Source: Chitinophagales bacterium (GTDB lineage: Bacteria > Bacteroidota > Bacteroidia > Chitinophagales > Chitinophagaceae). Taken from it: a stretch of 64,000 nucleotides of DNA. Each line of letters begins with the position of its first letter. The first letter of the stretch is position 1. Location: NCBI GenBank assembly GCA_017303855.1, contig JAFLBL010000007.1:62001-126000 (forward strand), read 5' to 3'. Below are positions 22,490-47,168 of this stretch, piece after piece. The notes under the pieces were generated by a model, which was not told where the DNA came from, did not search any database, and saw nothing but the letters and a program-made list of their open reading frames with translations. A program made the translations under genes and the position numbers.

Positions 22490-22522
22490 CAAAAATAATA
22501 AGCCCCGGTGAATACCGGGGCC
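22490..22522 (-). terminator. Intrinsic terminator of the phosphonate operon
   Basis: On the minus strand GCCCCGGT (22521-22514) pairs with ACCGGGGC (22509-22502) over a 4-base loop, followed by a T-rich run to 22490. It lies 84 bases after the aminotransferase-fold gene stop and ends just before the small lipoprotein start. Confidence 0.85.
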
Positions 22523-22605: not shown

Positions 22606-23952
22606 CTATTGTACGTCCAGGGAAATAAAAGCCTGTCTAATAATAAGAATTGCCTTTTTCAGCTGCTCCCGGGTAATAATCAGGGGCGGACATAACTGCA
22701 AGACATTCCCTTGCGAAACCTTAAAACTCAATCCCTGTTGCAGGCAATGATACATCACGGCTTCAGCCTCATCCAATGCCCGCTCTTTTGTGACGGGATC
22801 TCTGACCAACTCGACGGCCCACAATAATCCTTTGCCCCGGGTATCACCAACCAATGCAAATTCTTCTTTGAGCAAGGATAATTCCTGCCGGAGAAACTGT
22901 TCATCGGCTTTTACTTTATCTGCCAGCTGATGATTGATGGTATAGTCAATCATTGCCATAGCCGCCGCAGCACCCAGGGGTGTTTTTTCATGGGTATAAT
23001 GGCCCAGCGAAATATCTCCTGCAATATTGTATTCCTCTTTTGTTACAATAGCCGCCATGGGAAACACACCGGCCCCGAGCCCCTTACCCAGGCAAAGAAT
23101 ATCAGGTTCAATTCCATATTCTTCAAATGCGAACAGTGGCCCGGTACGGCCAAATGCAATCGGGATCTCATCGAGTATCAGCAGTACTCCATGCTTATCG
23201 CAGATCTCCCGTACCTGTTGCCAATATGCGGTGGAGGGAATTTGTACATCTGTATTGCGGATGGTTTCCGCGATAAAAGCTCCGATATCAGCGTGCCGGC
23301 TCAGCAGTTCATCCAGTTGCCTTATAAGTTGTATTTCCTGTGCCACCCCGTTCCGATAGGTATCGGTCTGTGGGAGAAATAAGGTTTCCGGGAAAAGTTG
23401 TCCCATGTACTTCCGGAACTGCTCCTCTCCGCCCACAGCAATAGCATCCAGCGAAGCGCCATGAAATGAACCCTGTATCGATACTACTTTCTGCTTACCT
23501 GTGATCCGCCGGGCCAGTTTCAGCGCCATACCCACGGCACTGGTGCCACCGGGGGCAAATAAAACCCGGCTCAGCGATGCTGGCAAGAGACTGACCAGTT
23601 TTTCTGCCAGTTCAACAGCAGTCTTATTGGTGTAGCGCCGGGGAGAAAAAGGCAAATGTTCCAGTTGTTCCCGGAGTTTTTCCAGTACATAAGGATTCCG
23701 GTAACCCACCTGGTGTACGCTGTTGCCGTGAAAATCCATGTATTGCTTTCCGTTAGTATCGGTCAGGTAAATGCCCTCGCAGGATTCGATCATGTTCAGG
23801 CAGGGCGTGGACAACGATTGATGGAGGAATACTGCTGCATCCCTGCTCAGCCATTCCCGGGTAGGGGTGTCGAGTTGTTCGTACCAGTCCTGCCGGGCTG
23901 CCGAAAAATTGATATCTCCCTCCTGCCGCAACTGACGAAGTGATTCATTCAT
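22606..23952 (-). CDS. Class III aminotransferase-fold enzyme, PbfA-like phosphonate ammonia-lyase
   Basis: 448 residues, PLP fold type I, class III aminotransferase family. The PLP-binding region is visible (LILDEIPIAFGRTG, with the PLP lysine in LGKGLGAGVFP) and FAPGGTSAVGMALKLAR binds the cofactor phosphate. Relatives in phosphonate gene clusters include (R)-1-hydroxy-2-aminoethylphosphonate ammonia-lyase (PbfA), which yields phosphonoacetaldehyde. The neighbours here (phosphonatase-type HAD enzyme, FAD amine oxidase) support that role, but a plain 2-aminoethylphosphonate transaminase activity is not excluded. Last gene of the operon, 9 bases after the oxidase gene. Confidence 0.8.
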   Translation of the reverse strand: MNESLRQLRQEGDINFSAARQDWYEQLDTPTREWLSRDAAVFLHQSLSTPCLNMIESCEGIYLTDTNGKQYMDFHGNSVHQVGYRNPYVLEKLREQLEHLPFSPRRYTNKTAVELAEKLVSLLPASLSRVLFAPGGTSAVGMALKLARRITGKQKVVSIQGSFHGASLDAIAVGGEEQFRKYMGQLFPETLFLPQTDTYRNGVAQEIQLIRQLDELLSRHADIGAFIAETIRNTDVQIPSTAYWQQVREICDKHGVLLILDEIPIAFGRTGPLFAFEEYGIEPDILCLGKGLGAGVFPMAAIVTKEEYNIAGDISLGHYTHEKTPLGAAAAMAMIDYTINHQLADKVKADEQFLRQELSLLKEEFALVGDTRGKGLLWAVELVRDPVTKERALDEAEAVMYHCLQQGLSFKVSQGNVLQLCPPLIITREQLKKAILIIRQAFISLDVQ

Positions 23953-23961
23953 GGTTACCGA

Positions 23962-25083
23962 TTAAAAAGCATTCATAATTTTTTCCGACAACCCAAAAGA
24001 TAAGGTCATTCCGGCACCACCCAGTCCGTTAAATATCAGGACTCCTTCTTCCGGTTTCAGGGTTAAAAACGATTCGCCATTGGTGAGTTTTGGATAGATG
24101 CCGTTCCAGGTCTGGATGAGCTGTTCATTTTTAAAACGGGCAAACTGCCGGAGATAGTCAAGGATCAGCTGATTGATCGCTTGTTTATCGAACGGATCAT
24201 GGGTATTGCCGTACTCATGTGAATCGCCGATCGTCAGTTCGCCGGATTCATTCTGGGCCACCATTACATGAATGCCCCATTTAAGGTATTCCGCATATTC
24301 CGTTTCGTACCGTTTCTGTAAAAGAGGAAGTGAAGGTGCAGAACCAAACCCTTTATAATGGATCAGTGAAAGGGAGCCGCAAAGGGCCGGGCCGATGCGC
24401 CAGTTGTCCGGCTGACCAGCCATCCGCATCATCTGCAATTTGCATTTAGTCAACGGTGCGGAAGCATACGCTTCAGGGTACAGGCTTTCAAAATCAGCCC
24501 CGCCGCAAACAACCACCAGGTCGGCTTCAAGGGTTTCGTTGCCGAGCTGCACACGGGGATATTGTATTGAAGTAACGGCACGTCCCCAGGTAAATTCCAC
24601 ACCGTGCTTGGCTTCGAGCCAGGCCGGTATTTCGGCTATGGCTTTCCGTGAATCAATGATCAGTTCATCCGGACTGTACAAAGCACCCTGCAGCTGATGT
24701 GTAATCACGGCTCCGGATTTTGCAGTGGTTTGCGCGGGAGTAAGCACTTCACAGCCTCTTGAAGGATCTGTCCCTGCAGCAAATTCCTGCAACACCTGCC
24801 ATTCGTCCGGCGCATAGGCCATGTGCAGGGAGCCAACAGCATCATACCAGATACCCGCTTCCGTACATAATTCTTTCCAGATACTCCTGGAACGCATCGC
24901 GGTTTCATACCAGTCTCCTTCCGGCTGACCAACCGGCCATACCATACCAAAGTTTCGGATGGATGCGCCTACGGCCTTGTTGCTACGCTCGATCACCTGT
25001 ACTTTATATCCTTTCAGGGCCAGTGTTCTGGCGGAGGCCAGACCGGCAATACCTGCGCCGATTACTATAGCTTGTTTTTTCAT
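23962..25083 (-). CDS. FAD-dependent amine oxidase of the TIGR03364 type
   Basis: 373 residues, DAO-type flavoprotein. The dinucleotide motif VIGAGIAGLASARTLALKG is at the N-terminus, with RSNKAVGASIRNFGMVWP next, and NGLGGAGMTLSFGLSEK at the C-terminus closes the FAD site. The family recurs next to phosphonatase-like hydrolases and is thought to oxidise aminoethylphosphonate or its N-methyl form, releasing phosphonoacetaldehyde or the free amine. Its start overlaps the transporter stop by 4 bases (ATGA), showing translational coupling. Confidence 0.82.
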   Translation of the reverse strand: MKKQAIVIGAGIAGLASARTLALKGYKVQVIERSNKAVGASIRNFGMVWPVGQPEGDWYETAMRSRSIWKELCTEAGIWYDAVGSLHMAYAPDEWQVLQEFAAGTDPSRGCEVLTPAQTTAKSGAVITHQLQGALYSPDELIIDSRKAIAEIPAWLEAKHGVEFTWGRAVTSIQYPRVQLGNETLEADLVVVCGGADFESLYPEAYASAPLTKCKLQMMRMAGQPDNWRIGPALCGSLSLIHYKGFGSAPSLPLLQKRYETEYAEYLKWGIHVMVAQNESGELTIGDSHEYGNTHDPFDKQAINQLILDYLRQFARFKNEQLIQTWNGIYPKLTNGESFLTLKPEEGVLIFNGLGGAGMTLSFGLSEKIMNAF

Positions 25084-26369
25084 ATATCTGTACCTTTTAG
25101 AGCAGAACTGTTCCGGTATTTTCGTTTAAAATAAAATGCTGCAAAGATGACCAGTATTATTCCGGCTACTGATCCGATCAGTACCAGCCGCATAAAAAAA
25201 GCCGTCCAGGATAATTCCATCCGGGTAAAGTTTTTGACAAAGAGGATGCCGGTACTGCCGAGATAACCGAATGAATCGGCCACATAAATAATAAAGCCTG
25301 CATTACTGATATAACGGAAACTCGCGATGAGTCGTTCAAACAGCATACAGTTGAAGGGGACATAACCTATATACAAACCTACCCCGCTGAGCGTCATCCA
25401 CCAGAACGGGGAGATACTGTCTTCCAGGTAGAGTAATGTACTGATAATGGATAACAGAAATCCACTGATGATGACAATATGGTTCACCAGGAGGGCCCGG
25501 ATATTCTTACGGATCAGGATGAGCAAACTCATCAGGAACAACACAACTAATGAAGCAGGAATTTCACTTTGGGTAAATACCGATGCATTATTGGCATACC
25601 CCAGTTCATTCCACATATCGGAGGCAAAATTGCTCCGGTAATCACGGATTATCGTCAACATGATATAGGAAGTGATCAGCAACAACAGTCCCGGGAAAAA
25701 CGTCTTAATAAAGTCCTTTCTGCGTTTTTTGCTCATGGGTTTCCGCTCTGTCCGGTAATACATATCCCGCTGATCAGGCAAGGGTGTTTTATCCAGCAAC
25801 CAGGTAAATAATATAAGTACCGGAAAAAAGAGCAGCCCGGTGATCCAGGGCATCCAGTATTCAGACACATTCCATTCGAGCAGCACAAACTTTCCTGCCG
25901 ACTGGGCAAAGCCTGAGGCAAAGATGAAACTCGCTGATAAAACAGCACCGAGTAACTCAGTAGTGCGTCTTCCTTCCAGGTAACTAAACACGAGACCGTA
26001 GATCACCCCCAATGGAAATCCATTGAAGAAAAGAAACAATACATTGAAGGGCGCCGGGAACAGGGCAAAAAAGAAAAGCGAGATCCAGGCGATGAAGATC
26101 AGTTTAATGATCGCCGGCGCCCGCCTGTCGGTTTGCATGGATCCGACAAAGCCGATCCCGAAAAATTTACTGGCGGTATAGCCGATGGTCTGAGCAATGA
26201 CCAGCCATATTTTGTAATCCACCCCGGCAAACTGTACACCTGTAAAGCCAGCCGCTGTAAAAGGTTTGCGGAAGGCATACATACAAGTGTACACACAGAA
26301 AGCAGAAAGCGCCGCGAGTAATGATACCTGCCATTCTTTGCGGCTGAGCTGCAGGGAAACACTGCTCAT
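25080..26369 (-). CDS. DUF5690 / MFS-type membrane transporter
   Basis: 429 residues from ATG 26369, about twelve membrane helices. I prefer this start to the in-frame ATG at 26483 because it overlaps the upstream stop in a TAATG junction and the longer N-terminus (Cys/Arg/Ser-rich) is not protein-like. The sequence AFCVYTCMYAFRKPFTAAGF near the start is typical of DUF5690, a branch of the major facilitator superfamily. Within a phosphonate operon with no ABC importer, it is the obvious candidate for uptake of an aminophosphonate (inference). Confidence 0.8.
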   Translation of the reverse strand: MSSVSLQLSRKEWQVSLLAALSAFCVYTCMYAFRKPFTAAGFTGVQFAGVDYKIWLVIAQTIGYTASKFFGIGFVGSMQTDRRAPAIIKLIFIAWISLFFFALFPAPFNVLFLFFNGFPLGVIYGLVFSYLEGRRTTELLGAVLSASFIFASGFAQSAGKFVLLEWNVSEYWMPWITGLLFFPVLILFTWLLDKTPLPDQRDMYYRTERKPMSKKRRKDFIKTFFPGLLLLITSYIMLTIIRDYRSNFASDMWNELGYANNASVFTQSEIPASLVVLFLMSLLILIRKNIRALLVNHIVIISGFLLSIISTLLYLEDSISPFWWMTLSGVGLYIGYVPFNCMLFERLIASFRYISNAGFIIYVADSFGYLGSTGILFVKNFTRMELSWTAFFMRLVLIGSVAGIILVIFAAFYFKRKYRNSSALKGTDI

Positions 26370-27043
26370 TACTGAAGAATAGCGGGTATATCGGACAATT
26401 GATTCAGTATATGATCGGGTTGTGCCGCTTCCAGTACATCTCTGCTGGTGGCACCGGTAGTCATGGCAATTACTAAATGGCATCCGGCATTCCGGCCTTC
26501 TTCAATATCCACGGGTGTATCACCAATCTTGATCACATCTTTGGCCTCTTCGACCTCCGCCCTTTTCATCAGTTCACTGATCATATACGTGTAGGGCCTG
26601 CCCATGGCCACTTCATTGCTGCCAATAAAATCATCCACTAATCCTTTTTCCTTCCACTGAAAACGGTGTACAATGGTCTCTGCGATGCGTTTGGAAAAAC
26701 CGGTATTAAGCGCAATGCGGATCCCTTTTTCTTTTAATTGCAGAAACACTTCTTCGGCATCTGGCATAGGTTTTACCACCGGATCGTACTCGTAAAAGTC
26801 AACCATCTCTTCTTCAAAGTCCGCGTGGATCTCTTCGATCAGTCCGGCATCCGGTTCCATTCCCAGTTTTTCCAGCATAAGCTGAATAGCCAGGGGTTTA
26901 TGATAGCCCATCAGCGGATTGGCATCTGCTTCGGTGATGTCCAGTTCCTGTTTGGCAAATGCATTGATAAAAGCAAGGGCCACATTGCTACGATCCATGA
27001 CAGTAGTACCTGCCATGTCAAAAACAGCCAGTTTGATTGACAT
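26369..27043 (-). CDS. Phosphonatase-like HAD hydrolase (PhnX-related)
   Basis: 224 residues, HAD superfamily. The nucleophile D9 stands in FDMAGTTV: residue 11 is Ala, not the usual second Asp, the hallmark of phosphonatases. K49 in MGYHK matches the Schiff-base lysine position of phosphonoacetaldehyde hydrolase. Later motifs are NTGFSKR and IKIGDTPVDIEEG. It most likely cleaves the C-P bond of phosphonoacetaldehyde to acetaldehyde and phosphate; the family (TIGR03351) is annotated only as phosphonatase-like. First gene of the operon, with a candidate 11-bp-phased regulatory array 45 bases upstream. Confidence 0.85.
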   Translation of the reverse strand: MSIKLAVFDMAGTTVMDRSNVALAFINAFAKQELDITEADANPLMGYHKPLAIQLMLEKLGMEPDAGLIEEIHADFEEEMVDFYEYDPVVKPMPDAEEVFLQLKEKGIRIALNTGFSKRIAETIVHRFQWKEKGLVDDFIGSNEVAMGRPYTYMISELMKRAEVEEAKDVIKIGDTPVDIEEGRNAGCHLVIAMTTGATSRDVLEAAQPDHILNQLSDIPAILQ

Positions 27044-27131: not shown

Positions 27132-29168
27132 TTAAAATACAACTGTAGCAGAAAGCCATGCACTCCGGCCCACGCCATTGATGCCTGAGCCGTGGGTGCG
27201 GTAATCTTCATTCAAAAGATTCTGGAAACCGGCCGAAAAGGAAAGATGTTTTACCTGGTAACCGCCGTACAGGTTGAATACATTCCATCCGGGTGTGCCT
27301 CCGGCTGGTATTCGGTTATCTTCTTTATCACCTTGTGCCAGCCGGTGCTGGGCACCCGCCAACTGCCACTCAGCTGAAGCAAACCAGTGCTGTCCTTTCC
27401 GGTAAGTCAGTAACCACCGCCCATTAAAAGGTGGTATCCGGCGCAGGGGCTCGTTCCTGGTCAGGTTTTGTCCATAGGTATAGCTAAGTCCTCCCTTGAG
27501 ATCAAGCGTATTTGTAAACTGTGCTGCAAATGAAAACTCTGCTCCCCGGACAAAAGCAGCATCTGTATTTTCTTTCCGGTATACGGGATAGCCGCTGATG
27601 ACCTGTCCGGCTTCGCGGATCCGGGTGATCAGGTTAGTTATATCCATGTAGAATACGGCAGCAGTAGCACTGAACTTTTTACCCTGCCATTTATACCCCA
27701 GCTCTGACTGTGCAGTACGTTCGGGTTTCAATCCGCTGGCTGGCACTTCATACCGGAAATCCACAATACCCAACGTACCCATGTCATCCACATTGGGAGC
27801 CCTGAAACCGCTACTATACGAAAAATAAAGAGCTGTTGATTTACTCATAGAATACAGTATGGCGGCGTTCTGAACTAAAGCGGATGGGGATACATTCACT
27901 TTACCGAGACTGGTATCACGGATCGTAATTTCAAAACGATTATAACGCAAGCCTGCATCGATAAACCAACGACCCAGGTTGATATGTTGTAACGTATAGA
28001 GTGAGTAATTGCCGTAAGTGGACCCATCGGGATAAAGACCCCGTTTCTGATCAGTCACGCCGGTAACGGCATTAATATCCGACCGTGTACTGAATACTTT
28101 ATCCAGATAGATCTCCGCACCCGAACAGGCTGACCAATGCTTGGTTAATACAGAGCGGATATCCGCTGTAAAGCCGGCAGTGCTGATCCTGTCGCGTTCC
28201 TTCCTTAATACAGTACTTCCGTTCTTCTGATTATTGCGGCCTTCTGTCCCTTCCTGTAAGGAAAGCGTAAACTCGGATTCCCGGAAGACTTTTGAAGAGC
28301 GTTCAGTTTTCAATCGCAGGTAACTGAAAAACCGCTGCTGTGGGTCCATTTCATTGAGCTTGAAGTTTTCCAGCACCACTTTATGATAAACCGGCACATG
28401 CTGTTGTTGTAACAATTGACTTACCAGTTGCAGCGTACTGTTTGATTTTAGCCGGACTTTCAGGTTTATATCCATACCCCACTCGTCGTAACCGGAAGGC
28501 GACTGTTTACCCGTAGTATCACCACCGATCAGGTCGCCAAAGTGCTTCTTACTGATTCCGCCAAGAAGAGCCACATTTTTGCCGGTAAGGGATACATCAC
28601 CCCTGCCGGTGGCTTCCATGCCGCCCGTCATGAATTTGCCGGTCAGTCTGCCACCCCATTTTTTATTTGTATTGGCAAAGGCCGGCTCGCGGGTAAATAA
28701 TTGTACCACCCCGCCCATTGCGTCCGACCCATATTGTACAGAACCAGTACCCTTGGCCACTTCGATGCGTCCAATAGAATACATATCTACTGTATTCAGG
28801 TATTGATTAGGTCCATACCGGTAGGTGGAATTGTTCAGTCGCACACCGTCCAGGAGTAAAAGCGCCTGATTGCCGGTTAATCCCCTCACAAAAGCCGATC
28901 CTCCCCCATGATTTGTCTTTTGTATGAATACACCGGTAAGTCCCTGCAGGGCTTCGGGTGTACTACGTGGACTGTAATTACTCAGGTTTTGTGTACTGAC
29001 TGTACTTACTGAATATGGAACACGGAGATTTTCCTGTTTACTCCGCAACGCAGTTAATACCACTTCATTCAGCATTTTTTGAACCGAATCCTTTTCTGCT
29101 GGTTTTTCCTGGGCATTTGATTGCATCAGTACTACAGTTGCGAACAAAAACAGAGAGAAACGAATCAT
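27132..29168 (-). CDS. TonB-dependent outer membrane receptor
   Basis: 678 residues with a signal peptide (cleavage near QSNAQ). A plug domain lies at about 45-160 (SVSTVSTQNLSNYSPRSTPEALQGLTGVFIQ, RGLTGNQALLLLDGVRLN, YGSDAMGGVV), then a 22-strand barrel ending in a final aromatic residue (ATVVF). No CarboxypepD-like N-terminal domain, so it is of the siderophore/cobalamin type and not SusC. It is the last gene after two phosphoesterases, 18 bases downstream of the second. The substrate may be a product or co-substrate of those enzymes (inference). Confidence 0.9.
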   Translation of the reverse strand: MIRFSLFLFATVVLMQSNAQEKPAEKDSVQKMLNEVVLTALRSKQENLRVPYSVSTVSTQNLSNYSPRSTPEALQGLTGVFIQKTNHGGGSAFVRGLTGNQALLLLDGVRLNNSTYRYGPNQYLNTVDMYSIGRIEVAKGTGSVQYGSDAMGGVVQLFTREPAFANTNKKWGGRLTGKFMTGGMEATGRGDVSLTGKNVALLGGISKKHFGDLIGGDTTGKQSPSGYDEWGMDINLKVRLKSNSTLQLVSQLLQQQHVPVYHKVVLENFKLNEMDPQQRFFSYLRLKTERSSKVFRESEFTLSLQEGTEGRNNQKNGSTVLRKERDRISTAGFTADIRSVLTKHWSACSGAEIYLDKVFSTRSDINAVTGVTDQKRGLYPDGSTYGNYSLYTLQHINLGRWFIDAGLRYNRFEITIRDTSLGKVNVSPSALVQNAAILYSMSKSTALYFSYSSGFRAPNVDDMGTLGIVDFRYEVPASGLKPERTAQSELGYKWQGKKFSATAAVFYMDITNLITRIREAGQVISGYPVYRKENTDAAFVRGAEFSFAAQFTNTLDLKGGLSYTYGQNLTRNEPLRRIPPFNGRWLLTYRKGQHWFASAEWQLAGAQHRLAQGDKEDNRIPAGGTPGWNVFNLYGGYQVKHLSFSAGFQNLLNEDYRTHGSGINGVGRSAWLSATVVF

Positions 29169-29186: not shown

Positions 29187-31592
29187 TTACTTTGTGGTCG
29201 ATAAAAAAGCACTGCGACGAGGCGCCGGCATTTTACTGCCCTCTCCTTTTACCGCTTTCCAGATCACTTCACTGAAGACCAGGTCCGGAATAGCATCTTC
29301 CTTACTGAGATCGAATGTTTCACTGAGCCGGGCACTCGGTGTATTCTTTTTATTTTTTTCATTGAGATCCACCAATGCCGGTACTGAGGTAAATGGAGTA
29401 AGATCCAGGTTTGTGGAAAAACAACGCCACATCGGTTCTGCTGCTGCATCATACTGACTCATCGGCGGTAATCCGAGAATCAGTTCGATGGTCCTGAGCA
29501 TGGACGACGTGGAGTACATAGTATGATCAATGAATTTTCTTCTTACAAAACCTCCGGCTACGTAAGCTGTTGTACGATGTGCATCCACATGATCCGGACC
29601 GTTCTGTGCATCATCCTCCACTATGAATACGGCGGTCTCATTCCAGATCGGGCTTTTCGATAAATACTCAATGAACATCCCTACTGCCAGGTCATTATCC
29701 GCTACATGTGCAAAGGGGGTGGGACGTCCGAGCCGTTGTCCTTCAGTGTGGTCATTAATAAAACGGAGTGAATTAAACCGCGGTACTGCATTGGCTAGAT
29801 AAAGTGAATCAAATTCCTGTTTCCATTGATAAAAACGGGTGGTATCCCGTATTGATTCATCCCAACTTGTATAATAAGGACAGAAATGATTTTCCAGTGT
29901 TTTGTAATTGGCTTTATAGTCATCGGCAAATTCGCCATAGGTTCTGAAACTTACACCGGCTCGCTTACAGTAATCCCAGATAAATCCCCGGTCGGGATTT
30001 GAAACTTCCCGGTTACCTTCTGCATCATAACTGCCTCCCCGTCCTCCATAGCTGGTAGGCCAGGTTTTCTCCAGGTAATCATTGGCATTGGCCGCAGTAC
30101 TCCAGTTATGCCCGTCTGCACTCACTTCACCATCTACATAAAAATTATCGAGTAATACAAACTCTGCAGCGAGCTTATGTTGATTGGGTGTGATATTTTT
30201 TCCGAACAATACCAGACTGGTATCGCCATTTCCTCCCGGCATATCTCCCAGCACCTGGTCATAGGTTCTGTTTTCCTTGATCACATAAAATACGTATTTG
30301 ATGGGCGAAGGATCCCCGACTTTCATGGGAATGGGACTTCCAGCTTCTCCGTTGGATACTGTTTCGCGTTCTTTAGTATAAGGTGTATTGGCATACACAC
30401 TGCGCGAATAATCAGCCAGTTTTTCTTTAGAAGGCATATCAATAATACTCAACGTCCCTTTAAAAAGACCTCCGATGTATTCGATCCGGCTTTGTTGTGC
30501 ACGGTAATCGCCTTGCTGGTAATTCACTTCCTGATCTTTCTTTGTAGGGTCAGGCCCTTTTGCGTTGGGCAGGGAAGAGAAGCCCTTGCCATTGCTGACA
30601 AATATTTTCTTCCCAATCACTTTAACATTGGTGGGATACCAGCCAGTGGGAATAAAACCTTTGGACTGGCTGAATCCAGGTTTGCTTACATCAAATACGG
30701 CCAGGCTGTTATTATCGGCATTGGCCACAAAAAGTGTTTGCTGATCTTCGCTGAGTGCAAGTCCGTTACTGGCAGAACCGGTTGGCGCATCTGGATAAAG
30801 AGCAGCGTTCAGTACTTCCACCACTTTCCGCTTTGCGATATCGATCACGGATACCGAGTTATCACCGGCGTTGGCTACAAACAATATCTTCCCGTTCTTT
30901 GACAACAATAATTCATTCGGGTTCTCCCCTGCATCGATAGAGTCCCTGATTGTACGGCTCATGAGATTATATAACAGTACTTTCTTTCCACCCCATAACG
31001 AAATATATAAATCCTTCTTATCAGCTGACAAGAGGCAGGAATATGCAGGTTCACCCAGAGAGCGTTTAAAACTTATTTTTTTAGTAGCCAGGTCTACAAC
31101 ATAAAGTGCATTGTCTTCCTTAGTCACGACAAAGAGTATGCGACCGGATGCATCCAGTTCGATACCGGCCGGCGAGATCTTCTCCGGCCATTTTTTCCCG
31201 AGTAAGATACTGTCAGTCAGCACCAGTTTCTTACCGGCAATCCGGTACTTCAGGATCATATTGTCATTGCCGCCGCTGGCATAGAGAAATTTTTCATCCG
31301 GACTGAAGGTTAATCCGTACCAGGATTTAGGGATCACTACCGCATCGAGTTGTTTTTCGTTTACGGGATCAATCAACTGGATGCTCTGTACGCTTTGCCC
31401 GTTATTGGTAACCGCCATCCATTTCTTAGATCGGCTGACGGCGATATTCAGCGGCAGATCACCGAGTGGCAGTGAACGGCCAGCCGGTGACAAACCCCAG
31501 CCATTGGGCAGCCGGTAATTCTCCTGGGCAGTTACTGTTTCAATAGTAAAAAGGCAGCATGCAAGCGATAATAAAAGCAGGGAGTATCTCAT
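29187..31592 (-). CDS. Beta-propeller (YncE-like) / phosphoesterase fusion, copy 2
   Basis: 801 residues from ATG 31592, chosen because a signal peptide (MRYSLLLLSLACC...VTAQ) starts there and the gene then begins 4 bases after the upstream stop. Residues about 30-380 form a YVTN/YncE-type propeller (repeats such as LFVANAGDNSVSVIDIAKRKVVEVL). Residues about 420-800 are an alkaline phosphatase-fold phosphoesterase (PF04185-like) with ENRTYDQVLG, DGHNWS and EDDAQNGPDHVDAHR. It should cleave phosphate esters in the periplasm or at the surface. It is a diverged paralogue of the next gene upstream. Confidence 0.85.
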   Translation of the reverse strand: MRYSLLLLSLACCLFTIETVTAQENYRLPNGWGLSPAGRSLPLGDLPLNIAVSRSKKWMAVTNNGQSVQSIQLIDPVNEKQLDAVVIPKSWYGLTFSPDEKFLYASGGNDNMILKYRIAGKKLVLTDSILLGKKWPEKISPAGIELDASGRILFVVTKEDNALYVVDLATKKISFKRSLGEPAYSCLLSADKKDLYISLWGGKKVLLYNLMSRTIRDSIDAGENPNELLLSKNGKILFVANAGDNSVSVIDIAKRKVVEVLNAALYPDAPTGSASNGLALSEDQQTLFVANADNNSLAVFDVSKPGFSQSKGFIPTGWYPTNVKVIGKKIFVSNGKGFSSLPNAKGPDPTKKDQEVNYQQGDYRAQQSRIEYIGGLFKGTLSIIDMPSKEKLADYSRSVYANTPYTKERETVSNGEAGSPIPMKVGDPSPIKYVFYVIKENRTYDQVLGDMPGGNGDTSLVLFGKNITPNQHKLAAEFVLLDNFYVDGEVSADGHNWSTAANANDYLEKTWPTSYGGRGGSYDAEGNREVSNPDRGFIWDYCKRAGVSFRTYGEFADDYKANYKTLENHFCPYYTSWDESIRDTTRFYQWKQEFDSLYLANAVPRFNSLRFINDHTEGQRLGRPTPFAHVADNDLAVGMFIEYLSKSPIWNETAVFIVEDDAQNGPDHVDAHRTTAYVAGGFVRRKFIDHTMYSTSSMLRTIELILGLPPMSQYDAAAEPMWRCFSTNLDLTPFTSVPALVDLNEKNKKNTPSARLSETFDLSKEDAIPDLVFSEVIWKAVKGEGSKMPAPRRSAFLSTTK

Positions 31593-31596
31593 GTTG

Positions 31597-34308
31597 TCAG
31601 TTGTTTTTATAATGTCGTTTCCTGAGATCATCCTCATCATCCATATCCGGTCCTTTCTCTACTTTACGCCAATCAATCTGCCGGTTGTATTTTCTCATGG
31701 CCTGCTCCGGATCAAAAACCCGTTTATCCGGGTAAACAAAGGTATAAGGTGTGTAATCCGGCTGATCGGTGAAGAAGTCCTGTAACAATGAGGCCGTAAC
31801 GTCATACTGATTCACGTACGGGATATTCAGGATATTATAGATCACTTTAAGGATCGAACCAAAGTTAGCATGAACATGGGATACATAGTTTCTTTTTACA
31901 TAAGGCCCGGCCATCATCAGCACACTGCGGTGGGCATCGATATGATCCACGCCACCCTGCGGATCATCTTCGGTAACGATCACCAGCATATTCTTCCAAT
32001 ACGGAGTACGTGAAAGGAAATGCAAAATGCGGCCTACGGCCAGATCATTATCGGCCATATAGGATTGTACATAAGGGTAGCCATCTTCCGGACGCGGACC
32101 TGAACCATGATCGTTTGGCACCTGCATGGTGATCAGTTGCGGCATTTTCTCTTTTCCGTTGAGCCACATACGTGCAAATTCCGCTTCAAACTGTTCCATC
32201 CTGAACTGATCAGGAATATTGGTATTATAACCGGCATAATTATGTGAGGTACGGCTCCACAGTGCTTTTTGCATCGGCACCATCACTGCATGGGCAGCAC
32301 CGGTAAGCGTATCGTGCCACTCTTCCCGTACATGGGCCGTTTCATTGGCTTCGCCGAAGTTGTAGAATGAAACTTTATTTCTTTCCAGTGCTTCCCACAA
32401 GCCACCGATCTCCGCATAATCCTCCGGATCCATACTTCCGGTACTTCCCGGAAATCGTCTGCCGGGTGCTTTTGAAAAATAGGAAGCAGATTTACTCACG
32501 CTCGAATTTGTTTCCACCCATTCATTGGGGATCACTCCCATCATCCAGTGATGGCCGTGAATGGAAGCATCACTGTCGCAGTAAAAATTATCACTAAAGG
32601 CAAACTCATCTGCCAGTTTAGTGTGATTGGGCATCACGTTGGCATTGGCAACTTTTACCGTGTCATTTTTACCATACACATTTACATTTACACCAAAGCG
32701 TGCCAGGGTAAGATCCCCTTTACCGGTTTTCATTTGTCCCAGCACTTCATCATAGGTCCTGTTTTCCTTGGTGATATACACGATATACTTAATCGGGCTC
32801 TTCCTGATTTTTGGCAATGCAGGCAGCGGATTTCTCCCATTGTCATTAACATGCACTGCCTGCATAGTATTAACAAGTACCTGCCTGGTATATTTTGCCA
32901 GTTGATTGGCATCCGGCAGTTGAATTTTTTGAAATGTCGCCAGCTGTATATCACCGATATAGGTGCCCTGCACCGGTTTTACAAAATCCTTTCCACCATT
33001 TGGTCCGGCACCCAGGCCGCGACAACTGATCACATAGAGTTCTTTTTCGTCGTGACTGAGTAATACTCTGGCAGGGCCCCATCCTGTAGGGAGCAGACCA
33101 ATCGTTTGCCTTGTATTCACATCGATCACGGCCACTGCGTTGAAACCCAGTAAGGCCACATATAGTTTTTTCTCATCCTTGCTTAAAGTGATACCAAATG
33201 GAAGGAGGCCCCTGTACCGGTCGATACGTTTATCCACTTTGATGGGAATATGCGCAACGATCTTCCGGGCTTTATAATCAATCACGGAGATATTATCATT
33301 GGTGGCATTGGTCACATACGCATAGCGGCTCCCTACGGCAATGGAGTTCGGACTCGCCCCACCTACCACTTCCGCGTCTTCGACCATTTGTCCGATCTGG
33401 TGACCGGTTTTGAATTTATCAATGACCTTGTTACTGGCCAGATCAATAGTGAATACACTCATGGCTTCAGGAGCCAGCGGACTTCCCACACCGGGAATTT
33501 TCTTTCCATCAATGGTTGTACCATGTATGGAGGCAGGTGAATTATCCGCATAAGGATGCCAGTTGATCATCATCTTATGGTAGTTGGCGGAATCCATGCC
33601 ATCCACAAGCGGATAGGCATACATGCCTACATTGGCCACAAAGGCCAGCTTTTTATCCGGACTCAGTGATAACCCAAAGGGCTGACGGCCAACGGGTATA
33701 CTGGCTGAAATTTTATTTGTACGCAGATCAATCCTTACCAATCTGAAATTGCCACGATCCAGTACCAGTAATTCATTCGTTACCGTGTTCACCAGCAGAT
33801 CGGACGTAAAACTATCATCATATAAGTTTCCATTCACGATACCATTGAGCGAAATGGAGTCAAGACGTATCATGCGTTCCGTATCATAAACGATCACAGC
33901 CCCGTTATCACCACCGCTGAGATACACTATTCCGGAATCCGGTGCAAAAGCAACGCCCAGAAAAGAGCCTTTTGAAAGTGGTGAGGGAATTTTTCCATCA
34001 TAAGAAGGAACCCGTGTATGCAGGAGTGTGGCATTCTCAATAATCGTAAACACGCCATTGTGCAGGGTTATTGTTTTCTTTCCGTCAGGCGACAGGGCCA
34101 TTCCAAATGGATCATGAGTTATCCGGATCAATTCACCGGCCGGTTGCACATACCTGCCACTGGGTAAAACAGAAATGCCCTGTTCATTTATTAAAGCATA
34201 CTGGTTTCTGCCCGGCACCTGTAATGTCTGAATCGTTTTTTCTTTTTGCGTCCATCCGGGTAAAAAGGCCAGGATAAAAAGGGATGTTAACAGTTTTGCT
34301 TTCGTCAT
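31597..34308 (-). CDS. Beta-propeller (YncE-like) / phosphoesterase fusion, copy 1
   Basis: 903 residues from ATG 34308 (MTKAKLLTSLFILAFLPGWTQ, a signal peptide); the upstream TTG at 34341 lies inside a terminator hairpin and is rejected. The N-terminal propeller (about 40-480) has repeats such as YVTNATNDNISVIDYKARKIVAHIPI. The C-terminal phosphoesterase domain has ENRTYDEVLGQM, ASIHGHHWMMG, PNDHGSGPRP and TEDDPQGGVDHIDAHR. The family is usually called 'bifunctional YncE family protein/alkaline phosphatase family protein'. It is about 100 residues longer than the second copy, mostly in the propeller. Confidence 0.85.
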   Translation of the reverse strand: MTKAKLLTSLFILAFLPGWTQKEKTIQTLQVPGRNQYALINEQGISVLPSGRYVQPAGELIRITHDPFGMALSPDGKKTITLHNGVFTIIENATLLHTRVPSYDGKIPSPLSKGSFLGVAFAPDSGIVYLSGGDNGAVIVYDTERMIRLDSISLNGIVNGNLYDDSFTSDLLVNTVTNELLVLDRGNFRLVRIDLRTNKISASIPVGRQPFGLSLSPDKKLAFVANVGMYAYPLVDGMDSANYHKMMINWHPYADNSPASIHGTTIDGKKIPGVGSPLAPEAMSVFTIDLASNKVIDKFKTGHQIGQMVEDAEVVGGASPNSIAVGSRYAYVTNATNDNISVIDYKARKIVAHIPIKVDKRIDRYRGLLPFGITLSKDEKKLYVALLGFNAVAVIDVNTRQTIGLLPTGWGPARVLLSHDEKELYVISCRGLGAGPNGGKDFVKPVQGTYIGDIQLATFQKIQLPDANQLAKYTRQVLVNTMQAVHVNDNGRNPLPALPKIRKSPIKYIVYITKENRTYDEVLGQMKTGKGDLTLARFGVNVNVYGKNDTVKVANANVMPNHTKLADEFAFSDNFYCDSDASIHGHHWMMGVIPNEWVETNSSVSKSASYFSKAPGRRFPGSTGSMDPEDYAEIGGLWEALERNKVSFYNFGEANETAHVREEWHDTLTGAAHAVMVPMQKALWSRTSHNYAGYNTNIPDQFRMEQFEAEFARMWLNGKEKMPQLITMQVPNDHGSGPRPEDGYPYVQSYMADNDLAVGRILHFLSRTPYWKNMLVIVTEDDPQGGVDHIDAHRSVLMMAGPYVKRNYVSHVHANFGSILKVIYNILNIPYVNQYDVTASLLQDFFTDQPDYTPYTFVYPDKRVFDPEQAMRKYNRQIDWRKVEKGPDMDDEDDLRKRHYKNN

Positions 34309-34312
34309 AATA

Positions 34313-34348
34313 ATAAAGTTAAAATAGCGGAACCTGGACAAGTTCCGC
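34313..34348 (-). terminator. Hairpin with T-rich tail between susD-like gene and phosphoesterases
   Basis: On the minus strand AGCGGAAC (34348-34341) pairs perfectly with GTTCCGCT (34332-34325) over 8 bases, followed by TATTTTAAC. It ends 4 bases before the phosphoesterase ATG. It may partly terminate SusCD transcription or mark an mRNA processing site that sets a lower level for the downstream genes. Confidence 0.65.
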
Positions 34349-34423
34349 TTTGTTTACATACTGCTCACTTATTGCTCATGCTAAAAAAGTTCAGCCTTCA
34401 GCTACTGGTTAGTAATTTAGTAG

Positions 34424-35947
34424 TTATTGGGCAATCCACGGCCTTGTATTCAGGTCGTCAGCGCCTTGCCTTTGTACAGCCGCTGCACGGTTTGCCCCAT
34501 TTAATGATTGTTCGGATAAGGGATAAATATATCGTACCGGCACTTTCCCGTTATTCAGGTTAGCCGGACCCGGAACAATGGCCGGTTTTCCGGTTCTTCT
34601 CCAGTCAAACCAGGCTTCAAGTCCGTTAAAATAAAGGGCGATCCATTTCTGCAAAGCGATCTTATCCAGCATTTCCTCATTGGTTCCTGAAAGAGCCACC
34701 ATCGGTTGAGTAAGGTAGCCGGCTGGCATTCCCACATTCAGGTTGTATGCGGCGGGTACTACCGATTGCCAGTAGGCAAAATTGGCGTTGATGCCATTCT
34801 GATAATAGGTATCGGCATCCCCGGTACTGATCATTCCTTTCAGCCGGGCTTCAGCCAGAATAAACTGAAGTTCCGCATAGGTCATCAGCAGTGCTCTTGC
34901 AGCTGAGGGATCAGGAGCAGCCTGGCCTGCATCGTTACATACCAGACAGGCAAATGTATAACCCACCCTGGACACGCCCTGTACTCCACCATTGTATGCA
35001 AGGGCATCCACATCGCTCAATCCGTTTGGTACACCTTGTATTACCGGTGTTCCGGCTGCTACCGATGTCTGCGTAGGGCGGCCGAATACACGTATACGTG
35101 AATCATTCAGCGCAGTTAAACGATCCGTCAGTGTTTTACTAACCCTGAATTCATCAAAGGAACCCACCCTTGTACCATACAACGGCCATTGATTAGGCGC
35201 GGCTGCCAGGTATTTCAGTTCTGCGTTATCCGCATTTCCGGAAAATACCGGATTATTCGCCGCATCGCCAACTATCGCCTGCATGTCCGCATTTACATTC
35301 TTTTTCTTTGACAGGCGCAGGAGATAACGGAGACGCAGGGAATTCGCCAGTTTCCTCCATTTTAGTAAAGCACTGCTACCGCCTCCATATAACAGGTCGC
35401 CGGTGAATGTTCCCGATGCGGTGGCTAATACTTCGTTGGCTTTTTTAAGATCAGCCAGCAGGCCGGTATAAATATCTTCCTGTTTATCATAGACCGGCTG
35501 ATACAGCCCTTCAGTTTTTGCTTTTCCAGCCTCACTGTACGGCACATCGCCGTATGCATCCGTAGCCATCGCAAACATCCAGGATTTCATGATCAGGGCC
35601 ACCCCGTAATACGGGTTCTTCTCATCTCCGTTTACCGATGTGAAAATATTCTGCAGATTCCTGTAATTACCATACACCGTACTCCAAATACCATTCTGCT
35701 CATTCCATCCATAGCGGTCTTCATTTACAAACTGAATTTTGGCATGGTGCTGAGCCACAATATTGCCAATCCCCCAGGCTTCACTAACCTGACGGTCCAT
35801 CGTACTTTTAATAATCCCGCTGAGCAACAGGTCCGGGGTAACGGTAGTGGTGTTGTTTTTATTGGTATTCGTATCGGAAAAGTCCTTCGTACAGCCGGTC
35901 ATCAAAGCTAATCCGAGTACCGGAAGAACAGATTTTATCAGTTTCAT
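34424..35947 (-). CDS. SusD/RagB-like nutrient-binding lipoprotein
   Basis: 507 residues, lipobox ending at Cys19 (L-M-T-G-C-T-K). The fold is the SusD-like_2 group: an N-terminal TPR-type helical scaffold (TPDLLLSGIIKSTMDRQVSEA, IMKSWMFAMATDAYGDVPYSEAG, with the SusD hallmark 'W...TD.YGDVPYSEA') and a C-terminal QKWIALYFNGLEAWFDWRRTG. SusD-like proteins sit on the cell surface as a lid on their SusC partner and bind the nutrient. It follows the SusC gene by 21 bases. No glycosidase is linked, while phosphoesterases are, so the ligand may be a phosphorylated compound (inference). Confidence 0.93.
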   Translation of the reverse strand: MKLIKSVLPVLGLALMTGCTKDFSDTNTNKNNTTTVTPDLLLSGIIKSTMDRQVSEAWGIGNIVAQHHAKIQFVNEDRYGWNEQNGIWSTVYGNYRNLQNIFTSVNGDEKNPYYGVALIMKSWMFAMATDAYGDVPYSEAGKAKTEGLYQPVYDKQEDIYTGLLADLKKANEVLATASGTFTGDLLYGGGSSALLKWRKLANSLRLRYLLRLSKKKNVNADMQAIVGDAANNPVFSGNADNAELKYLAAAPNQWPLYGTRVGSFDEFRVSKTLTDRLTALNDSRIRVFGRPTQTSVAAGTPVIQGVPNGLSDVDALAYNGGVQGVSRVGYTFACLVCNDAGQAAPDPSAARALLMTYAELQFILAEARLKGMISTGDADTYYQNGINANFAYWQSVVPAAYNLNVGMPAGYLTQPMVALSGTNEEMLDKIALQKWIALYFNGLEAWFDWRRTGKPAIVPGPANLNNGKVPVRYIYPLSEQSLNGANRAAAVQRQGADDLNTRPWIAQ

Positions 35948-35968: not shown

Positions 35969-38900
35969 TTATAATTTAAAACTCAGGTTGAAGCCATAGC
36001 TGCGGGTGGTAGGCAAACTCATGTATTCAATACCGGGAAGAGCTGTACCCCCGGAATACGACATGGTTTCCGGATCAATATGGGGCACGTTGTCCCACAG
36101 GAAGAGGTTCCGTCCCACAAGGCTGATCGTCAATCCGCGTACAGGCAACTTACCAAATACTTTATCCGGCACTGTGTAACTAAGCTGCAATTCCCTGAGT
36201 TTGATGAAAGAGGCATCATACATAACGCCTTCCGCAATGCTCCGGCCACCCGTCCATGCAGTATGCCACTCACGGGCTGTTACTTTCTTTGTATTGGGAC
36301 TGAATGAGCCGTCCGTATTTTGCACTACTCCCTGACCTATTACGCCATTTCCTTCCAATGTAAGATCATAGCCATTGGCCCGGCCTTCGAGTGTTTCAGT
36401 GATGATACCTCCCTCACGTCCCACCGTTTGTGTTTCAGAATACAGTTCACCACCACTGCGGATATCGAAAAGAAAACTCAGCCGTATTCCTTTGTAGCTA
36501 AAACTGTTTCCAATACCCATCAGAAAATCGGGATTATAGTTACCCAGTTTGATCCGGTTTGTTGTAGCAACCGGGCGTCCATTGGCCGCAAATACCATTT
36601 GCCCGACATATTTACCACTGGCATCATAATATTTGCCAGCAGGGTCTGTGTTTTGCACACGGGCAAAGGCAATGCCATATAAGTCACCCATGCGTTCACC
36701 CACGCGTGCTTCCACACTAACCCTCCGACTGGCCATTACATAGTTGGTCAATCCATCACTCAGTTCCAGTACCGTACTGCGGTTAGCAGAAAAATTTACA
36801 AATGCATCCCATTTGAAATCATTTTTCTGAACCGGTGTTGCATTCAACATGATTTCCACTCCGTTATTACGGATCAGCCCGGCATTGATTTTACGTGTAT
36901 CATAACCGCTCGCACCCGATAAAGGAATATTCAGGATCTGATTCTTGGTACGGCTCTGATAATAGGTAATATCCAGGCCGAGACGACCGCCAAAGAAACG
37001 GATATCGGCGCCTGTTTCATAAGCGGAACTGATTTCAGGTTTCAGGTTAAGGTTTGCCAGCGAGCTGGTTTCCCCGTAAATCTGGTACGCGCCGAAGGGC
37101 TCACTACGGTTATAGGTTTGTGTGAATGCGAATGGATCCGTATCATTCCCAACCTGGGCAAAACTGCCACGCAGTTTTAAAAAGCTGATTACTTTCGGAA
37201 GCTTTACCATATCGCTGACAATTGCACTGAGCGCTACGGATGAATAAAAATAAGAATTCACCTCATTACCGAATGCTTTCAGGTCCTCCGGGAGTGTAAG
37301 CGCACTGCTCCAGTCGTTCCGTCCTGTAATATCCAGGAATAACTTATTCTTATAGGAAACACCGGCTGAACCGTATAAACTGTTAATCCGTTTGGCAACA
37401 TTGTTTTGTTCAACTACCAGGGCTATACGCGAATTATTCAGGCTATATATATTCGGAATATTAAGCTGACCGGCCACATCTTCCTTCCAGCGGGAAGTCT
37501 GGCGCATCTGGTTTCCCCCCAATGTTCCGCTAACACTGAAATCACCATTAATGTTTTTATTCGCGGTAAAAAGGAAATCAGAATTGCGCTCTTCATTGAC
37601 AATGCCTGTTTCACGATACTGACCAAACGGGAAACGCTGTGTACTGAACGCACGACGGAATTCACGGCGCTCATTGCTCCAGTCCGTTGCCGTACGCAAT
37701 TGCAGGTTCAGCCAGTTAGTGAATTCATATTTTAAGACCACGTTTCCGATCAGCCGGTCGTAATATTGTCCGTTGGTATTGGCCATAACAGTCAGATAAG
37801 GATTGTCATGATAATTATAGTTCCAGCTGTATTGTTTCTGATTATCCAGCCCGGCCTGCCATAGACGCTTCATGTCACCAACATTAACGGATGCGGGCAG
37901 CCAGCAGTTAAAAAGGTACATGATACTTTCCGTTCCGTAACTGATAGAAGGCCGGTTGTCACTTTCACTGCGGATATAACTTACAAAGGCTTTTGCTGAT
38001 AATTTATTGGTAAGGTTATAGCCACCAGAAACAGAAATCGTATTTCTTTTCAGGTCAGTATTCGGCACAATGCCCTTCTGGTCGAGATTAGTGTAGCTTA
38101 ACCTGAAATCACCGTCTTTATTGCCGCCTGTCATGGCCACATTATTCGTAAACGTAGTGCCGGTTTCCAGGAAATTTTTCAGGTTGTCTTTATCCGCCAC
38201 CCAGGGTGTAGCCGTAATTATGCTGCCGGCAGGTGCGTTCAGATCACCCCCGGTATAATTTATCAGCTGCCCATTGAGTGTCCGGGGAGAATTGAACTGA
38301 GGGTACGACTGCCCGTTAAAGGCCGGCCCCCATCCTTCATCCGTTCCATCTGCCAGTCCGCTGCCACCACCATTAACAAACGCAAAGGCACCACCACTTC
38401 CGTTTCCCTGACCATATACGGTCTGATATTCGGGCAATTTCAAAGCTGTTTCAGCAGTTATATTGCTGCTGACTTCGATACCTATTCCTTTTTGTTTCTT
38501 ACCGCTCTTGGTTTTAATGAGAATGACCCCGTTGGCGGCTCTTGAACCATATAATGCGGAAGCGGCAGGACCTTTCAGCACACTCATTGACTCAATATCG
38601 TCCGGATTGATAAAGCCGGCCCCGTTTCCGAAATCCACTTCCATATTGCCACGACCGGAAGCCCCGGTAATCGAATTGCTTACAGGTACACCATCCACTA
38701 CGTATAATGGCTGATTTTTATTCAGGTCCACAGATCGTTCCCCGCGGATCGTTACCCGGGCTGAAGCACCAACACCGGAAGGGCTTCCCACAACCGTTAC
38801 TCCGGCAACTTTCCCGGCCAGCTGATTCACGACATTGGTTTCCCTGGCAACCGTAAGATCATCTCCTTTCACTTCCTGTATAGCATATCCGAGCTTTTTT

Positions 38901-39256
38901 TTCTCTTTTCGTATACCCAAAGCCGTTACTACCACTTCTCCCAGGTTGCGGGTATCCGGTTGCAAGGCAACCACAGCGGCCTCTGATACGCTGACTTCCC
39001 TGTTTACATAACCCACATTGCTGACCAGGAGCCTGTCATTGGAAGCCGCCTGGATGGCAAACGATCCGTCTGCGGATGTAGTAGTCATTTTACCGGTCTT
39101 CTTTACCACAACCGTGGCGCCGGAAAGCGGTGAATTATTTTCACCTGAAAATACTTTCCCGTTTACCGTTTGCTGTGCCATTGTCAGCAAGGAGAGCAGG
39201 AGTGGGAAAACCAGTAATCCAAACCGCTTTCCCGGTAGTGCTGTTCGTAGATTCAT
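35969..39256 (-). CDS. SusC/RagA-family TonB-linked outer membrane transporter
   Basis: 1095 residues with a signal peptide. A CarboxypepD-regulatory-like domain (about 30-105, KVFSGENNSPLSGATVVVKKTG) precedes a plug with VVVTALGIRKEKKKLGYA and the SusC signature PLYVVDGVPV, then a long beta-barrel ending YGFNLSFKL. It imports a nutrient captured by the SusD-like lipoprotein encoded next. The upstream region has a strong 11-bp-phased array and a CACCTTAG box, which suggests activation by an OmpR/PhoB-type regulator. Confidence 0.95.
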   Translation of the reverse strand: MNLRTALPGKRFGLLVFPLLLSLLTMAQQTVNGKVFSGENNSPLSGATVVVKKTGKMTTTSADGSFAIQAASNDRLLVSNVGYVNREVSVSEAAVVALQPDTRNLGEVVVTALGIRKEKKKLGYAIQEVKGDDLTVARETNVVNQLAGKVAGVTVVGSPSGVGASARVTIRGERSVDLNKNQPLYVVDGVPVSNSITGASGRGNMEVDFGNGAGFINPDDIESMSVLKGPAASALYGSRAANGVILIKTKSGKKQKGIGIEVSSNITAETALKLPEYQTVYGQGNGSGGAFAFVNGGGSGLADGTDEGWGPAFNGQSYPQFNSPRTLNGQLINYTGGDLNAPAGSIITATPWVADKDNLKNFLETGTTFTNNVAMTGGNKDGDFRLSYTNLDQKGIVPNTDLKRNTISVSGGYNLTNKLSAKAFVSYIRSESDNRPSISYGTESIMYLFNCWLPASVNVGDMKRLWQAGLDNQKQYSWNYNYHDNPYLTVMANTNGQYYDRLIGNVVLKYEFTNWLNLQLRTATDWSNERREFRRAFSTQRFPFGQYRETGIVNEERNSDFLFTANKNINGDFSVSGTLGGNQMRQTSRWKEDVAGQLNIPNIYSLNNSRIALVVEQNNVAKRINSLYGSAGVSYKNKLFLDITGRNDWSSALTLPEDLKAFGNEVNSYFYSSVALSAIVSDMVKLPKVISFLKLRGSFAQVGNDTDPFAFTQTYNRSEPFGAYQIYGETSSLANLNLKPEISSAYETGADIRFFGGRLGLDITYYQSRTKNQILNIPLSGASGYDTRKINAGLIRNNGVEIMLNATPVQKNDFKWDAFVNFSANRSTVLELSDGLTNYVMASRRVSVEARVGERMGDLYGIAFARVQNTDPAGKYYDASGKYVGQMVFAANGRPVATTNRIKLGNYNPDFLMGIGNSFSYKGIRLSFLFDIRSGGELYSETQTVGREGGIITETLEGRANGYDLTLEGNGVIGQGVVQNTDGSFSPNTKKVTAREWHTAWTGGRSIAEGVMYDASFIKLRELQLSYTVPDKVFGKLPVRGLTISLVGRNLFLWDNVPHIDPETMSYSGGTALPGIEYMSLPTTRSYGFNLSFKL

Positions 39257-46156: not shown

Positions 46157-47167
46157 TTATTTCATAATGCGGAAAAATACCCTTCCCGTAAGCAGAAATG
46201 CAATGAAAACAAAAACTGCAAATACCCAGCTGCTGACCGCAAACTGAATCCCGCCGGATATAATATGACCGCTGGTACACCCACCGGCCAGTCTTGCTCC
46301 AAAGAGTAAGAGAAAACCACCAGTGAAGGCCCAGAAAATGCGACCTTCCGGAGCAGTCCCTTTCATCCGGATCCAATTATCATGCAAAAGCCGGATCTTA
46401 AAATCCCCTTTTAATAATGAATACGCCAAGCCGGAAAGAAAAGCACCCGCCAGAAACTTCATTTCATAGAAACCGGATTGCTGAACCTGTTTGATGTAAT
46501 AATCATTATCCGTAAGCCCGGTCAGCTGGTCCGCAATATAGGGGTAAAAGGTAGAAGCCCCCAGTACCCGGTCTGATACAATGAATATGGTAACCGCTAT
46601 TACAGCAATCCCGGTCGCAGAAACAAACCACTTCAGTTCCTTCTTTTTCTCTACCCTTTGTAGCCAGAATGCACCAGCGATCAATATCATGCCGATCAAA
46701 CCAACCAATAAAGAGTAGATAACAGTACCAGCAGTCATTGCCGTCGAAAGCGCTATTTTACCCAGATCCGGACCCAGCGCTCCATGTATAGATGGGCTTA
46801 ACACGGTATAAAGTAATGAAGCCGCAAAACCGCCAACTATGCCAATCAATGCATCCACAGAACCTTGTCCCAGTGAGACAGGTAGTGTACCCGGACAATA
46901 CCCGAGAATGGCCATGCCGGTGCCAAACAACAGTCCGCCAATGATAACCGAGCCTGCCAGAAAGGGTTTGATATGAAAATCCGCATAACCCAAACCAATA
47001 GCAATGCTGAGCCAGATGGCCCCGATACCAATAGCAGCGGCAATGGTCTTAGCAACTGTGAAATCCTCGAGCACGGCCATACCGGAAATGCTGTTATAGG
47101 TATTGACCTTTGCATATTGCAGGAAAAGACCAAAAAGAAAACCGAGGGAAATAGTTAGTACGGTCAT
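46157..47167 (-). CDS. YeeE/YedE-type sulfur transport membrane protein
   Basis: 336 residues, about ten membrane helices, formed of two similar halves. The first half has GMAILGYCPGTLPVSLGQG and the second LAGGCTSGHIISGG, the Cys-containing motifs of YeeE/YedE proteins that pass thiosulfate or related sulfur species through the membrane. It is the last gene of the ArsR-controlled operon, one base after the upstream stop. Together with the rhodanese it adds a sulfur-handling side to what otherwise looks like an arsenical/thiol resistance operon. Confidence 0.88.
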   Translation of the reverse strand: MTVLTISLGFLFGLFLQYAKVNTYNSISGMAVLEDFTVAKTIAAAIGIGAIWLSIAIGLGYADFHIKPFLAGSVIIGGLLFGTGMAILGYCPGTLPVSLGQGSVDALIGIVGGFAASLLYTVLSPSIHGALGPDLGKIALSTAMTAGTVIYSLLVGLIGMILIAGAFWLQRVEKKKELKWFVSATGIAVIAVTIFIVSDRVLGASTFYPYIADQLTGLTDNDYYIKQVQQSGFYEMKFLAGAFLSGLAYSLLKGDFKIRLLHDNWIRMKGTAPEGRIFWAFTGGFLLLFGARLAGGCTSGHIISGGIQFAVSSWVFAVFVFIAFLLTGRVFFRIMK

Positions 47168-47168
47168 C

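Follow-up and report, generated by a model that had tools for sequence, protein, structure and literature searches.

Within a 64,000-nucleotide stretch of a Chitinophagales genome (henceforth the window, i.e., the whole stretch of DNA that was analysed), we found what is very probably an aminophosphonate utilisation operon, in which a DUF5690 membrane protein would act as the inner-membrane aminophosphonate permease and breakdown would proceed without PhnW, through PbfA, an FAD-dependent oxidase and a HAD hydrolase. Aminophosphonates are a large pool of organic phosphorus, and the known importers of 2-aminoethylphosphonate (AEP) are ABC systems and AepP. If the proposed role is true, a family of no known function would provide the import step so far lacking in Bacteroidota of soil and gut, human gut Bacteroides included, and genomes bearing DUF5690 could be called as phosphonate users, with uptake being directly testable.

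The preliminary description of this DNA had proposed the gene order HAD, DUF5690, FAD amine oxidase and PbfA-like enzyme, with TAATG and ATGA couplings. Inspection of the open reading frames bears this out: the four genes are packed side by side on the minus strand between 27043 and 22606 (Table 1), the HAD stop and DUF5690 start share TAATG, the DUF5690 stop and the start of the FAD gene overlap as ATGA, and 9 nt separate the FAD gene from pbfA. The TAATG junction sets the DUF5690 start at the ATG at 26369 and hence its length at 429 aa; the longest open reading frame, starting at 26483, was rejected since it runs too far into the HAD gene. Elsewhere in the window, sulphur-transport (PF04143) and DsbD-like genes lie next to each other on the minus strand (46157-47876) and are unrelated to the operon.

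Table 1. Features of the operon and its surroundings (positions in the window).
Feature	Position	Strand	Remarks
PbfA, class-III aminotransferase fold	22606..23952	-	NF049939 match
FAD-dependent amine oxidase	23962..25083	-	TIGR03364 family (PbfD1 annotated to TIGR03364)
DUF5690 (PF18943), 12-helix MFS-fold membrane protein	25080..26369	-	429 aa; proposed aminophosphonate permease
Phosphonatase-like HAD hydrolase	26369..27043	-	224 aa; D9 nucleophile, A11, K49 Schiff-base lysine, R149, D175, D179
TonB-dependent receptor	27132..29168	-	88 nt upstream of HAD gene
Secreted YncE-like propeller + PF04185 phosphoesterase	29187..31592	-	predicted start at internal ATG 31592; signal-peptide-like N-terminus follows
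Second secreted beta-propeller/PF04185 phosphoesterase	31597..34308	-	
SusD-like outer-membrane lipoprotein	34424..35947	-	neighbouring unit
SusC-like TonB-dependent transporter	35969..39256	-	neighbouring unit
Terminator-like hairpin downstream of pbfA	22501..22522	-	9 bp, 7 GC
Terminator-like hairpin between susD-like gene and first phosphoesterase gene	34326..34349	-	

PbfA scored 664.7 bits on the equivalog model NF049939 (cut-off 525), far above every transaminase model of known function, and shares 55.8% identity with a Vibrio PbfA situated between phnW and phnX in an operon that also includes an AEP ABC importer. Its own operon likewise adjoins a predicted phosphonoacetaldehyde-forming oxidase to a predicted phosphonoacetaldehyde-cleaving, phosphonatase-like HAD. 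The FAD enzyme matched TIGR03364 at 428 bits (cut-off 285.1); its sequence does not discriminate between a preference for plain AEP and one for N-methyl-AEP. The HAD scored below the curated cut-offs, with 191.6 bits on TIGR03351 (cut-off 218.9), although this was its best-scoring family, and 119 bits on the PhnX model TIGR01422 (cut-off 220). The two phosphonatase hallmarks proposed for it earlier, Ala11 and Lys49, were both confirmed together with D9, as part of a motif set comprising DxAGT (D9-A11-G12-T13), the cap lysine K49, R149 before the acidic motif, and GDxxxD (D175, D179). Among 59 relatives, D9, K49, R149, D175 and D179 are identical in all and A11 in 57. Top PDB sequence matches of the HAD are phosphonoacetaldehyde hydrolases, and canonical PhnX occupies its slot in related operons; its predicted fold (pLDDT 96) is that of a generic capped HAD, and fold comparison did not separate phosphonatase from other capped HAD phosphatases.

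One alternative is that the enzymes act on ordinary amines, as an omega-transaminase and a glycine/sarcosine-type oxidase, with the HAD being a general phosphatase. While their generic families (Aminotran_3, DAO and HAD) and the sub-threshold HAD scores fit such roles, the PbfA equivalog was matched about 140 bits above its cut-off, the A11/K49 pair is typical of phosphonatase and the genes co-occur with phosphonate genes (see below), making this alternative very unlikely. In the aminophosphonate pathway that we favour, PbfA would convert R-HAEP to phosphonoacetaldehyde inside the cell, the FAD oxidase would form the same product from N-methyl-AEP and AEP, and the HAD would cleave it to acetaldehyde and phosphate via a Lys49 Schiff base; PhnW would not be needed. 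This chemistry, already suggested in the preliminary description, is supported by analogy, as it fits the PbfA and PbfD-type enzymes that Zangelmi et al. characterised (PMC8154272, PMC10590968).

The absence of PhnW and of an ABC importer, initially claimed for the operon, held across the window's own genome (31 contigs, rated 100% complete): genome-wide, TIGR02326 (PhnW) had no match at E<=1e-30 and, as far as phosphonate ABC importers were tested, neither did the binding-protein models TIGR01098 (PhnD-type) and TIGR03261 (AepX-type). The same genome yielded no strong GlpT-family gene at E<=1e-40 and no Phn-HD oxygenase.

The DUF5690 protein matched PF18943 at 538 bits (cut-off 25) over profile positions 1-382 of 382, had no NCBIfam or MFS_1 match, and belongs to a family mentioned in no paper of the literature searched. 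Its AlphaFold2 model (pLDDT 91, pTM 0.89) has 12 helices in an MFS fold, in line with the MFS-type protein originally predicted. Foldseek ranked the human organophosphate carrier SLC37A4/G6PT first, and this structure also gave the best VIA row (Z 32.5, 3.2 A, 361 residues); GlpT aligned with the model at Z 28.7, and other MFS structures (DgoT, NorA and sialin) came within about 1 Z of SLC37A4. Far closer to the model than any structure in the PDB are MFS proteins of giant viruses (Edafosvirus, TM 0.91 at 22% identity; Pandoravirus, TM 0.73-0.80).

R34, K68 and R242 are invariant in 109/109 DUF5690 sequences. The best placement of the TM1 motif in GlpT fell exactly at R45 (p 0.002), which together with R269 makes up the arginines of GlpT for the substrate phosphate; scans with the TM2 and TM7 motifs (placements at K80 and R269) were not significant. 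Neither was profile similarity: hhalign gave a probability of 2.7% for DUF5690 against a GlpT-family profile, a mixed MFS profile was likewise not significant, and searching the PDB sequences with the DUF5690 profile (hmmsearch) returned nothing up to E 10. Since sequence and profile similarity are insignificant, kinship with OPA transporters rests on the fold and one motif, and we describe DUF5690 as a predicted MFS-fold carrier with an OPA-like mode of action rather than as an established OPA member.

OPA-fold proteins include the receptor UhpC, so that DUF5690 could conceivably be a membrane sensor rather than a transporter, a role that its invariant E132-G133-R134, which lies outside the TM motifs, might also suit. 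We consider this extremely improbable: the 108 loci described below show no recurrent two-component partner, their recurrent regulator being a soluble cupin-HTH protein (45/108), and a sensor would leave both operon and genome without a recognisable phosphonate importer. A transporter role has a precedent in AepP, the experimentally proven 2-AEP permease of Pseudomonas putida and a relative of GlpT (PMC8316502) and of the organophosphate:phosphate antiporters, which as a single MFS protein means that one MFS carrier suffices. By analogy with AepP, we infer an (amino)phosphonate permease function for DUF5690, which is not recognisably related to AepP by sequence and would import AEP, N-methyl-AEP and R-HAEP across the inner membrane.

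DUF5690 was present in 29 of 296 Bacteroidota genomes, specifically in 20 of the 22 with TIGR03364 and 20 of the 21 whose PhnX-like HAD match is strong (Fisher p about 1e-22, which overstates significance given that the genomes are related and phylogeny was uncorrected), as well as in 10 of the 12 with PbfA. The association between DUF5690 and TIGR03364 is not due to chance. Across 108 DUF5690 loci, drawn from genome samples and 80 named contigs, hydrolytic phosphonate genes were found nearby in 69, C-P lyase genes in 12 and neither pathway in 27. The 12 C-P lyase loci all came from Dyella/Rhodanobacter (PhnN, TIGR03223, PhnF, PhnH, PhnI and PhnJ); the idea that DUF5690 is unlinked to phosphonates in these genera was dropped once its neighbours proved to be C-P lyase genes. 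When 28 sample loci were compared with 40 arbitrary loci from largely the same genomes, HAD/PhnX turned up in 17 and the FAD enzyme in 16 of the former, and neither in any of the latter; phosphoesterases gave 17/28 vs 0/40, a comparison biased by seed proteins drawn from the test loci.

Minimal arrangements also occur: DUF5690, phnX and phnW form a bare set in the gut species Parabacteroides distasonis and Bacteroides finegoldii, and DUF5690-TIGR03364-phnX is found on a Novosphingobium plasmid. By contrast, two Bacteroidota with the FAD enzyme, PbfA and PhnW but without DUF5690 have an operon that includes a GlpT-family MFS gene, and in Gloeocapsa and Vibrio an AEP ABC importer lies beside TIGR03364 or PbfA, meaning that DUF5690 fills the transporter slot. 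In Bacteroidota, Xanthomonadales and Sphingomonadales, gene context lends strong support to the uptake role first proposed for DUF5690.

Several other associations were seen in these loci. In 36/108 (e.g., L104:7419-7985), the HAD/FAD/DUF5690 set comes with a Phn-HD oxygenase (TIGR03276, PhnZ/TmpB-like), and 12 loci have a PHP-domain (HisJ-like) gene of ~282 aa directly beside DUF5690 (L169:5141-5974, L105:8874-9731). Ferruginibacter has tandem DUF5690 copies (L134, L152), with PhnW beside them in L134, and Chitinophaga (L127-L131) shows SusC-SusD-DUF5690 with adjoining cobalamin genes and without catabolic genes nearby.

Alternatively, DUF5690 may import another organophosphate (phosphocholine, phosphoethanolamine or sugar phosphate) or export phosphate, as a general phosphorus-scavenging gene that lies by phosphonate enzymes by chance. 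This would suit the frequent neighbourhood of secreted phosphoesterases and phosphocholine-specific phospholipase C (PC-PLC), as well as the 27 loci with no phosphonate genes in view; phosphonate-linked rows are spread across the entire DUF5690 tree, and one whole, well-supported 9-member subclade is without any. However, the gut operons reduced to DUF5690, phnX and phnW, the 12 loci adjoining C-P lyase genes and the replacement of DUF5690 elsewhere by an AEP ABC or GlpT-type transporter all argue against this alternative, which we regard as unlikely. The phosphonate-free subclade (L091, L093, L095, L147, L160, L185, L193, L195 and L202) shows an FGFRKS motif in the rows read, and one of its proteins comes from the window's own genus (G115); this subclade possibly has another substrate.

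Upstream of the HAD gene, we found an extension of the gene cluster that the preliminary description had missed. The HAD gene, TonB receptor and two phosphoesterase genes follow one another on the same strand with gaps of 88, 18 and about 4 nt, and the span from the phosphoesterases (34308) to pbfA is bracketed by the hairpins at 34349-34326 and 22522-22501. The TonB receptor and both phosphoesterases probably belong to the same operon, and the SusCD pair is possibly linked to it functionally. Homologues of the phosphoesterase at 31597..34308 were also seen next to DUF5690 in 5 other loci, while SusC was found in 47/108 and SusD in 33/108 DUF5690 loci, in which several phosphoesterase families recur too. 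In the proposed scheme, the secreted phosphoesterases and TonB receptor would probably release and import substrate from conjugates such as phosphonolipids; judging from gene content, the locus as a whole would serve to release, import and degrade conjugated aminophosphonates. In Mucilaginibacter (L165:8630-11164), the FAD gene is immediately followed by a PC-PLC gene (TIGR03396, 829 bits), and an 845-aa PC-PLC family is found in 11 DUF5690 loci; a literature search on ceramide-AEP and bacterial phospholipase C gave nothing relevant.

More broadly, we see about an even chance that DUF5690 is a widespread, unrecognised phosphonate permease family (Bacteroidota including gut commensals, and some Proteobacteria), in many of its bearers sitting in PUL-like loci that harvest aminophosphonates from phosphonolipids or phosphonoglycans. 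By PUL-like we mean a combination of SusCD or a TonB receptor, secreted PLC or alkaline-phosphatase-superfamily esterases, DUF5690, PbfA/PbfD/phosphonatase and a Phn-HD oxygenase. Such a setting, if true, would imply that, besides being taken up free, phosphonates are extracted from polymers or lipids.

PbfD-type FAD enzymes paired with PhnX in the absence of PhnW have already been published, one of them oxidising plain AEP (PMC10590968), so the breakdown route as such is not new: its known modules are combined here in a new way, and what is novel is the link to DUF5690. Specifically, the PbfD2 and PhnX of Mariniblastus fucicola (PMC10590968) likewise combine an FAD amine oxidase, converting M1AEP and AEP to phosphonoacetaldehyde, with a phosphonatase in the absence of PhnW, whereas the operon studied here additionally contains PbfA, DUF5690 and upstream phosphoesterase/TonB genes, and its HAD is of a shorter, PhnX-like type. 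With the R-HAEP ammonia-lyase PbfA of Vibrio splendidus (PMC8154272) as reference, the window's PbfA exceeds the equivalog cut-off of the PbfA family, and the Vibrio protein to which it is 56% identical is a different one, but it is partnered with an FAD oxidase instead of PhnW. DUF5690 resembles AepP (PMC8316502) in being a predicted single-component MFS-fold carrier with a phosphonatase context and possibly in its TM1 arginine motif, and differs from it in lacking a significant match, by sequence or by profile, to the GlpT/TIGR00881 family. Finally, the SusCD-like phosphate utilisation systems of Flavobacterium (PusCD, named in PMC8812569) also place SusCD near secreted phosphoesterases in Bacteroidota, whereas here this arrangement appears coupled to enzymes of carbon-phosphorus bond cleavage.
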